From positions 1 through 47,054 of the forward strand of contig NZ_JADEVE010000171.1 of the NCBI RefSeq assembly GCF_016125955.1: a DNA stretch of 47,054 bases. Reading direction: 5' to 3'. Shown here piece after piece: positions 33,419 through 36,431 of the stretch. Source of the DNA: Acetomicrobium sp. S15 = DSM 107314. Its GTDB lineage: Bacteria; Synergistota; Synergistia; Synergistales; Thermosynergistaceae. A program made the translations under genes and the position numbers. Position 1 is the stretch's first letter. The number at the start of each line of letters is the position of its first letter. Below the pieces are notes generated by a model. It was not told the origin of the DNA. It worked only from the letters and a program-made list of their open reading frames with translations, and searched no databases.

Positions 33419-34852
33419 TCAACCTTTAACTACAGCCAGAGGCCGGAGGCGGGCAACCTTTCGGCTGATGTTGGCGCGCTCTACCACATCGACCACCCTT
33501 GAGACGTCTTTGTACGCCTCGGGAGCCTCTTCCTCTACGGTCTTCATGTCCTCAGCCATTACGACCACACCCTGCCTGGCAAGGCTTTTTACCACCGAGG
33601 CGCCGTCTGTGGCCTTCCTCGCAGCGTGCCTGCTCATTACGCGCCCTGCCCCGTGGCAGGTCGAAGAAAAGCACTCCTCGGCCGCGAGCTGGGTGCCCAC
33701 CAGGAGATAGCTCGCCGTGCCCATGCTGCCCGGTATGATGACGGGCTGGCCCACCTCGCGATACACGTGAGGAACCTTGGGATGACCTGCCGGCAAAGCG
33801 CGCGTGGCACCTTTTCTGTGGACACAAAGCTTTTGGACCTTTCCATCTACGGCGTGCTCCTCGATGTGGGCCATGTTGTGGCTCACGTCGTAAAGTAGCC
33901 TGAGCTCACATCCCGGGAAAAACCTCTCAAAGGCGTTCCTCACGAAATGAGCTATGACCTGCCTGTTAGCCATGGCGAAATTGGCCGCAGCCTGCATGGC
34001 GCCGACGTACGCCTGCGCCTCTTGAGAGGTGAGCGGAGCACAGCACAATTGCCTGTCGGGCACCGAGACGCCATACTTCCTCATCGCCCTGTTCATCACC
34101 TCTATATAATCGGTGCACACCTGATGCCCTAAGCCACGGCTTCCGCAGTGGATCATGATGGCCACCTGATTCGCCCTCATGCCGAAAACGGCTGCCACTC
34201 GAGGGTCGTAGATTTCGTCCACGCATTGGATCTCGAGGAAGTGGTTGCCCGAACCCAGCGTGCCGAGCTGGCGAAACCCCCTCTCCAGCGCCTTGTTTGA
34301 AACGGCATCGGACCTCGCAGAAGCGAACCCTCCGCCCTCCTCTATGTGCCCCAAGTCAGCCTCCACGCCGTAACCGCGCTTTACAGTCCATCGAGCGCCT
34401 TGGGCCAGCACGTCCTTCAGGTCTTTTTCCTTAAGGTGTAGTGCGCCGGAAGAACCCACGCCGGAAGGAACAGCTTTGAACAAGGCGGCCGCCAAGAGCT
34501 CAAGCTTCGAGGCGATCTCCTCTGCATCGATATCCGCAAGCATAAGGCGGACGCCGCAGGATATGTCGTAACCCACTCCTCCTGGAGAGACGACCCCTTC
34601 GTCCATGGAGAAGGCGGCGACTCCCCCTATGGGAAAGCCGTATCCCCAATGTATGTCCGGCATGGCGTAACTATATCGCTGAATGCCAGGTAGGCAAGCG
34701 ACATTGGCCACTTGAGCTAACACATTTTCCTCCTCTAAGTGCTTCAAAATGTAGTCATCACCGTATACGAGGCCGGGGACGTTCATCCCTTCGCGGCTTC
34801 CTTTGGGCAATATCCACCTCATCTCTCCGAATGGGCGCAACTCGATACCCAT
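33419..34852 (-). CDS. rtcB: RNA-splicing ligase RtcB
   Basis: 477 residues from ATG 34852 (GGAGG 8 nt upstream; the longer frame to 34867 starts inside the ribosome site). RtcB joins RNA 2',3'-cyclic phosphate or 3'-phosphate ends to 5'-OH ends using GTP and Mn. Seen: YDISCGVR with metal-binding Cys99, SGNHFLEIQ, MIHCGSRGLGHQV, YDVSHNMAH and VHRKGATRA with the guanylylated His. MPDIHWGYGFPIGG lies near 64-77. Its cofactor archease is encoded 0.4 kb away at 35239-35640 on the same strand, separated by an opposite-strand small gene. Confidence 0.95.
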   Translation of the reverse strand: MGIELRPFGEMRWILPKGSREGMNVPGLVYGDDYILKHLEEENVLAQVANVACLPGIQRYSYAMPDIHWGYGFPIGGVAAFSMDEGVVSPGGVGYDISCGVRLMLADIDAEEIASKLELLAAALFKAVPSGVGSSGALHLKEKDLKDVLAQGARWTVKRGYGVEADLGHIEEGGGFASARSDAVSNKALERGFRQLGTLGSGNHFLEIQCVDEIYDPRVAAVFGMRANQVAIMIHCGSRGLGHQVCTDYIEVMNRAMRKYGVSVPDRQLCCAPLTSQEAQAYVGAMQAAANFAMANRQVIAHFVRNAFERFFPGCELRLLYDVSHNMAHIEEHAVDGKVQKLCVHRKGATRALPAGHPKVPHVYREVGQPVIIPGSMGTASYLLVGTQLAAEECFSSTCHGAGRVMSRHAARKATDGASVVKSLARQGVVVMAEDMKTVEEEAPEAYKDVSRVVDVVERANISRKVARLRPLAVVKG

Positions 34853-34874
34853 TTCCTCCACCTCCATCCGAACG

Positions 34875-34890: not shown

Positions 34891-34915
34891 TCTATTATGT
34901 GCGAGGTGATGCTCG

Positions 34916-35266
34916 ATGTCACGCAAAGTTCGCGTCATTTCAAACTATTGGACCGACTACGTACGCTCCCACGGCGGCGACTTCCGCCTGGAGATGGCGA
35001 CCGTCATAGCCGGGTGATGAAATGCCTACAGGGGCCCGGTGGGCCTCTTGGGAAAACCCGAATCGCAGGAAAGTTACGAAGCTTGTCCTGTAGAGGGGAG
35101 TGACGATCTGACCTGCTGGGTTCACGAGGAGGTCATAGATTACATCGAAAGCCATCCGCTGCCCAGGGGAGGCTTTTATCTCTTCTATAACGATATGGCT
35201 GGGCGCGTGCGATTTGAGATATCCCCTATGAGTGAGGCTCACACATCGAGAAATACTCTAAAGTAA
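34916..35266 (+). CDS. Probable selenoprotein with two adjacent Sec codons (CC/Se-motif-like)
   Basis: 116 codons if TGA at 35015-35017 and TGA at 35018-35020 are read as selenocysteine. The same frame is open for 33 codons before them and for 81 after them, ending at TAA 35264-35266. GAGGTGAT lies before ATG 34916. Around the pair the protein reads VRSHGGDFRLEMATVIAG-Sec-Sec-NAYRGPVGLLGKPE, followed by YEACPVEG and WVHEEV. This pattern (short N-terminal domain, dipeptide of Cys/Sec, then a GKP(E/K) and V-G...V-V(H/P)(K/E) stretch) is what I recall for the small CC/Se-motif family, in which the pair is Cys or Sec. The usual annotation would miss it or call two fragments. A SECIS-like hairpin follows at once (35030-35048). 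Its tail overlaps the convergent archease gene by 28 bp. A redox role is likely for a Sec pair but the substrate is unknown. Confidence 0.72.
35030..35048 (+). promoter_or_regulatory. Bacterial SECIS-like stem-loop
   Basis: AGGGGCCC pairs with GGGCCUCU (8 bp, one G-U) around the triloop GGU. The loop begins 17 nt after the second TGA and 20 nt after the first, inside the 16-37 nt range described for bacterial SECIS elements, and its first bases are G, also as required. Confidence 0.65.
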
Positions 35267-35640
35267 GGACGCGGAAGGCAGGTGAAGTGCGCTCCGCCGA
35301 AGGTCGCAGCTTTTACATCCCTCTTGCGCTTCGGGGGAGGAATCAGCTTTCCTTGAGACTCCAGCCTCCATGTCCCTTCGTCGACGCTCACGACGGAAGG
35401 AAGAAAGGTCTTCCCTTTGGCATCATAGATGTAAATAAGCTCGTTCAGCCACACTATGGCCAGATCAAGCCCATCGGTTCCCTCAAGCGACAATGCGCAA
35501 TCCTCGCCGTCGCCCGAGGGCTTATCGCTAAACATGACGCTATATAAAGCAAGCGCCGCTTCTTTGAAGAGCTCGTCCAGGTTTTCGGCTTCAACCTCGA
35601 TCCCTACGTCGGCCGTATGGGGAATTTCTCTAAAGCTCAC
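35239..35640 (-). CDS. Archease, RtcB cofactor
   Basis: 133 residues from GTG 35640, which overlaps the surE stop in a GTGA arrangement; a longer open frame to 35970 lies inside surE and is a shadow. Archease speeds RtcB guanylylation and allows multiple turnovers. Seen: the conserved FREIPHTADVGIEVEAE opening with metal-binding Asp, LFKEAALALYSVMF, and the family C terminus ending in (V/F)LDV, in which the near-terminal Asp is a metal ligand. Being near rtcB on the same strand supports the pairing, though the small plus-strand selenoprotein gene lies between. Confidence 0.9.
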   Translation of the reverse strand: MSFREIPHTADVGIEVEAENLDELFKEAALALYSVMFSDKPSGDGEDCALSLEGTDGLDLAIVWLNELIYIYDAKGKTFLPSVVSVDEGTWRLESQGKLIPPPKRKRDVKAATFGGAHFTCLPRPYFRVFLDV

Positions 35641-36431
35641 TGCGCCTCTTCTCCCAAGGCATTCTCTATTCCGCTGGCTTCGAACCTTTCGAGAGATGGG
35701 TAGTGCGTCATGTCCATATGAAGCGGCGTCACAGAGACGTAGCCATGAGATACAGCCCAGACATCCGTCCCCTCTACGAGGTCGTCCTCTGGCTTTCCTG
35801 CTATCCAATAATACGTGCGGCCGTTGGGATCGCGCAGTTTGTTCACCTTGCCGGCGTAGACCCGTTGCCCCTTGCGCGTGGCCTTTATCCCTTTTAACTG
35901 GGCGAAGGGGAGATTGGGCACGTTCACGTTCAGCAGCACACCTTCGGAGACAGGGTTGACCTTCATCCATGCGAGCATCCTCACGACGACGAGGGCGGCG
36001 GTCTCGTATCTCTTTTCCTCATCGTCGATGTGGCAATCGAGGGAAACAGCGACAGATGTCTTTTTCATAAGGATACCTTCCATGGCGGCCGACACGGTCC
36101 CAGAATAGGTCACGTCATCACCTAAATTTGGGCCGCCGTTGATGCCGGAAAGTATGAGCTCCGCATCGGGAGATATCTCCTCCAACCCCAAGACGACGCA
36201 GTCCGAAGGCGTTCCATCGCAGGCATAGACCTCAAGCCCTGGGGGATAAGGCCCGCTCTCGACGCGAATGAGCCGCAAGGGGCGCGTCAGCGTTACGGCA
36301 TGGCCGATGCTGCTCCTCTCTCTGTCGGGCGCCACCACAACTACGCGATGACCCACCTCTGCGAGCTTCCTGGCGAGTATTGCGATGCCGGTGGCGAAGA
36401 CGCCGTCATCATTTGTGAGTAAAAGGCGCAT
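35637..36431 (-). CDS. surE: 5'/3'-nucleotidase SurE
   Basis: 264 residues. SurE removes phosphate from nucleoside 5'- and 3'-monophosphates and short polyphosphates. Metal ligands are in LLLTNDDGV (Asp8, Asp9) with Ser41 in APDRERSSIGHAVT and Asn in SGINGGPNLG; the DVTYSGTVSAAMEG motif follows. C-terminal extension DMTHYPSLERFE is the usual tail. It is translationally coupled to archease (4-nt overlap) and starts 15 nt after the upstream protease gene. Confidence 0.95.
   Translation of the reverse strand: MRLLLTNDDGVFATGIAILARKLAEVGHRVVVVAPDRERSSIGHAVTLTRPLRLIRVESGPYPPGLEVYACDGTPSDCVVLGLEEISPDAELILSGINGGPNLGDDVTYSGTVSAAMEGILMKKTSVAVSLDCHIDDEEKRYETAALVVVRMLAWMKVNPVSEGVLLNVNVPNLPFAQLKGIKATRKGQRVYAGKVNKLRDPNGRTYYWIAGKPEDDLVEGTDVWAVSHGYVSVTPLHMDMTHYPSLERFEASGIENALGEEAQ

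Follow-up and report, generated by a model that had tools for sequence, protein, structure and literature searches.

The May 2026 catalogue of prokaryotic selenoproteins comprises 119 families, none of which has a Sec-Sec motif (PMC13188914), and a selenoprotein list from 2022 agrees with it (PMC9312934). Bacterial proteins with two selenocysteine (Sec) residues are known, namely the Prx-like and NF041115 proteins (both UxxU), TsoB (UxxxxU) and MbdU, but none is given as adjacent Sec-Sec (PMC13188914 Table 1). Two consecutive Sec residues have been described in algal PDI_e, which has a GUGUU motif and is the first such selenoprotein according to its authors (PMC7539508). PDI_e, however, belongs to a eukaryotic PDI subfamily, has three Sec residues and uses a eukaryotic SECIS and eukaryotic machinery.

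Two further groups are relevant to the locus described here. The CC/Se motif family NF041239, a hypothetical selenoprotein of Moorella thermoacetica, is catalogued with one Sec, as is the HesB-like selenoprotein TIGR01911 (PMC13188914). The A-type carriers of the IscA/HesB type have three Cys residues, one in a loop and two in a C-terminal CxC.

A reading frame that crosses two adjacent TGA codons

We analyzed a 47,054-nucleotide stretch of Acetomicrobium sp. S15 (hereafter the window). The first-pass annotation had proposed a hidden gene here, and its frame was reproduced exactly: from the ATG at 34916 on the forward strand, 33 codons lead to TGA TGA at 35015-35020, and 81 more lead to the TAA at 35264-35266. 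The gene (34916..35266) would encode a selenoprotein of 116 amino acids, with Sec34 at the first TGA (35015..35017) and Sec35 at the second (35018..35020). This assignment rests on the translation, on homologues and on purifying selection before and after the TGA codons. The ribosome site claimed upstream can be read directly as a Shine-Dalgarno-like AGGTGA (34904-34909, forward strand), with the ATG 6 nt downstream. The claimed stem-loop (35030..35048, forward strand) is also there. Positions 35030-35037 pair with 35041-35048 in an 8-bp stem that includes one A-U and one G-U pair and closes a GGU loop at 35038-35040; the stem-loop alone has a predicted energy of -13.1 kcal/mol. An Rfam scan of the window returned no match at gathering scores.

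Both flanking genes lie on the reverse strand and outside the system. They are a divergent rtcB RNA ligase gene (33419..34867; PF01139, 591 bits) and a convergent ORF (35239..35970) with an archease domain in its C-terminal part (PF01951, residues 113-230). The archease ORF and the TGA TGA gene overlap by 28 bp at their 3' ends on opposite strands (35239-35266). A changed genetic code was considered and rejected, as TGA codons normally terminate translation in this genome: 7 of the 10 Pfam-annotated neighbouring genes end with one.

Absence of selA, selB, selC and selD would have refuted the Sec reading, but all four are present in the window's genome (G000). Profiles identified selB (369 bits, cut-off 242) and selD (346 bits, cut-off 125), the latter itself with an in-frame TGA. 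The gene for tRNA-Sec (selC) has the anticodon TCA and scores 77.6 bits against a gathering score of 47. selA directly adjoins selB (L046:8876-10273); this position and its sequence, rather than a profile match, identified it.

The TGA pair is conserved in Synergistota

Homologues were found in 26 of 61 genomes by a translated-protein search, and searching 188 genomes of the phylum Synergistota with a profile gave relatives in 32. These genome searches were confined to Synergistota, and Moorella-type members elsewhere were outside their reach. No relatives were found among the viral contigs, plasmids and phages searched. A single-sequence scan of the genome contigs also gave no match, presumably because the back-translation did not cover TGA and the query was divergent.

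The searches yielded 35 distinct copies, which carry TGA TGA at the same place (30 copies, here called UU for Sec-Sec), Cys-Cys (4 copies, CC) or Phe-Cys (1 copy). The 30 UU loci, in which the in-frame codon pair is followed at a constant distance by the same hairpin, come from nine families of the order plus one stray contig. The named loci are from MAGs of Synergistales, Synergistaceae and Thermovirgaceae; one UU member (L085) comes from a short contig assigned to a Planctomycetota bin.

The relatives align on both sides of the TGA codons, as expected from the earlier proposal that the two parts form one domain. Closely related pairs differ mainly at the third position of codons (30/25/105 at the first, second and third positions before the UGAs and 86/50/252 after them). 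In nearly all pairwise comparisons dN was lower than dS on both sides, indicating purifying selection. A pseudogene or sequencing artefact could be suspected from the two in-frame stops, and from nothing else. An identical codon pair in 30 distinct loci from nine families, under purifying selection, makes this explanation negligible, and we ruled it out.

The stop-free CC paralogues (L027-L030 and L090, four rows in the alignment) form one clade with a support of 100/100 and are located 2.4-10 kb from a UU gene in the same genomes. Residues 34 and 35 had been singled out as a place where loss of Cys or Sec in relatives would count against the proposal; they are UU in the 30 loci and CC in the paralogue clade. 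This interchange identifies the position as a Sec/Cys pair, the classic hallmark of selenoprotein families. The Phe-Cys copy (L019 / L073, genome G015) is also free of stops, and the RNA after its motif is still folded more stably than expected (z -2.2). This copy perhaps reflects a recent loss of Sec.

A distant sister group of the CC/Se motif family

The first-pass annotation had linked the protein to the CC/Se motif family. The protein is homologous to NF041239 and has a chalcogen pair where the motif lies, but membership does not hold: the window protein scores 21.3 bits against a curated cut-off of 40 bits, and we regard the UU group as a distant sister group. When 25 UU members were scanned with NF041239, nine matched with E-values up to 1 (best 0.00021), all below the cut-off. 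A profile-profile comparison (hhalign) of the UU group with the Synergistota members of NF041239 gave an E-value of 1.5e-6 and placed Sec34 on the conserved single Sec of that family. The two groups are similar in protein size. They differ in the number of Sec residues (one in NF041239, two in the UU protein) and in the C-terminal GCxGC, which several single-Sec members of the NF041239 type have and the UU protein lacks.

Many of the same genomes also encode single-Sec NF041239 members in genes of their own; seven such members in the phylum score over the cut-off. The window's genome has a sub-threshold gene of this kind (G000:C415:79328-79594). Its extended frame (L117:1829-2150, or G000:C415:79328-79650) contains a second in-frame TGA near the C-terminus (GSC-TGA-FGG), which is retained in a genome of the same genus (G001, L126) and could be a second Sec or a plain stop.

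Pfam has no model for the UU protein and gave no significant sequence match, and no NCBIfam model (June 2026) reaches the UU group.

A conserved hairpin follows the TGA pair

The 39 nt past TGATGA align without gaps in all UU loci. In all of them, as in the window, the predicted hairpin loop begins 17 nt after the second TGA and 20 nt after the first. Both values are within the published distance range for bacterial SECIS elements of 16-37 nt (PMC13188914), the second codon being near the lower limit. The consensus structure is the hairpin, although in a few UU loci the single-sequence minimum-energy fold favours another pairing. Across the alignment, 92% of the cells in the hairpin base pairs are paired, a value equalled by 0 of 500 shuffles, and versions slid along the alignment reach 75% or less.

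We compared fold stability with that of alternative synonymous codings of each peptide. The mean z was -1.70 for the UU loci (n=30), against -0.19 for the stop-free copies (n=5, including the Phe-Cys copy) and -0.38 for other in-gene regions (n=90). The loci share ancestry, and these z-scores, like P values for the gene linkage, overstate their independence. Locus L024 shows a compensated change: its 3' arm carries a codon change from Gly to Ala, and a silent substitution in the 5' arm re-forms the base pair. The hairpin encodes the motif GPxGL, where the Cys clade has GAAAY instead; it is as if a constraint on the RNA had shaped the protein here. Two of the 30 loci (L002 and L056, related and of one genus) have the loop CAU, without the G that is usual in bacterial SECIS.

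Decoding of the two UGA codons

In the mechanism that we propose, SelB and tRNA-Sec would decode two consecutive UGA codons with one downstream SECIS hairpin. We weighed this against two readings in which at most one of the codons gives Sec. In the first, translation stops at the first TGA and restarts to give a second peptide, so that the locus encodes two coupled small proteins. An ATG does follow TGATGA immediately (TGATGAATG) in 17 of the 30 distinct loci. In the other 13, the window included, this codon is for Thr, Ser or Asn, and L005 and L074 have no start-like codon over the next 15. This reading fails because these 13 loci lack the ATG and the Cys forms are single fused chains; the hairpin is, moreover, conserved. 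We consider it very improbable.

Alternatively, only one UGA may be Sec. The other would then be decoded by a near-cognate tRNA, that for Trp or Cys, or would act as a regulated stop through which expression depends on selenium. The single-Sec NF041239 members give some support to this: after the GxGU of their motif comes G, A, S or C, which puts Gly, Ala, Ser or Cys beside the Sec. However, no UU locus has anything but TGA at either position, the paralogues have Cys at both, and the two distances to the hairpin are both inside the SECIS range cited above. We find this reading unlikely, yet without protein data Sec together with a near-cognate residue cannot be fully excluded.

Tandem decoding of both codons as Sec, which the first-pass annotation had also inferred, is thus very probably correct. 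The conserved frame, the Sec/Cys interchange, the conserved hairpin in 30 loci and the Sec machinery are observations; insertion at both codons is inferred from them, with no protein-level data, and a diselenide between the two residues would be a further inference.

Predicted fold

The UU protein was modelled with AlphaFold2 (pLDDT 89, pTM 0.80), and the prediction is of an IscA/HesB-like fold. The best PDB matches in Foldseek were IscA (1s98 and 1r94) and AQ_1857 (1nwb), with SufA (2d2a) at rank 5. The match is modest (best E-value 0.015, TM 0.39-0.45), and a PDB sequence search with the UU profile gave a chance match only. In our reading, the order of the elements agrees with the IscA fold, and so does the place of the Sec pair, which lies in the loop that follows the long strand. 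From this order and the alignment with the CC/Se family, we infer that the Sec pair sits where the IscA fold has its first metal-binding cysteine. The UU family differs from the A-type carriers in lacking the C-terminal CxC.

Gene neighbourhoods suggest a possible metalloid or redox role

Genes near the UU loci of relatives include ACR3 (376 bits, cut-off 283), ArsR/SmtB regulators (over cut-off) and ArsC of the LMW type. PF03773 (ArsP-like) permease, CcdA-like and thioredoxin genes are also found. A PF03773 permease or ACR3 is encoded within 10 kb of 19 of the 30 UU loci (0.6 expected) or, counted by genus, in 10 of 15 (0.6 expected). These counts ignore shared ancestry and were made without a control gene family. 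The PF03773 permeases score closest to SaoE and to Cu/Zn exporters and not to a named arsenic pump, so their substrate is uncertain. All five copies in one genus (g9, five genomes) are without a link to arsenic genes, and the window's own UU copy, alone between rtcB and archease, has no arsenic neighbours. On the Planctomycetota-binned contig (L085:1-2150), an operon-like run consists of a thioredoxin-like ORF with an in-frame TGA (UMSC), a CcdA/ArsG-like membrane protein, an ArsC-type arsenate reductase and the UU gene.

From the gene neighbourhood we infer, with less than even confidence, that the likeliest role of the protein may be to bind a soft metalloid, for example As(III), or to reduce it, via its vicinal selenol pair and alongside efflux pumps. 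With the same Sec-Sec decoding, the protein could instead have an Fe-S role or a general thiol/selenol redox role, which is also possible without being the probable answer. The IscA-like predicted fold, the thioredoxin and CcdA-like genes beside several copies, the UMSC ORF in L085 and the lack of arsenic neighbours in the window would all suit such a role. The missing IscA-type C-terminal CxC does not, and neither do the ArsR/SmtB, ACR3 and ArsP-like neighbours, the last two with the by-genus linkage given above.

Implications

The UU protein shares its adjacent Sec codons with algal PDI_e, but it has no Pfam thioredoxin match. Sec-Sec is absent from the catalogued prokaryotic families; priority is not fully settled, as the Haft 2023 and 2025 papers may mention tandem Sec. 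Taken at its widest, our interpretation is of a first bacterial family with an obligate, conserved Sec-Sec, in which one SECIS would serve two UGAs and a diselenol on an IscA-like scaffold would capture arsenite or related metalloids for efflux pumps. We offer this combined interpretation only tentatively, and doubt it more than we believe it.

Since no NCBIfam model reaches them, UU genes are probably split or missed by standard annotation. Sec insertion in bacteria is inefficient and competes with termination, and a pair of UGA codons should therefore sharply cut the yield of protein. That a whole order of bacteria has retained the pair implies a task that two neighbouring selenium atoms can perform and a single one cannot. 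The family would offer a natural system in which to ask whether one hairpin lets SelB act two times in a row, and what purpose vicinal selenols serve.
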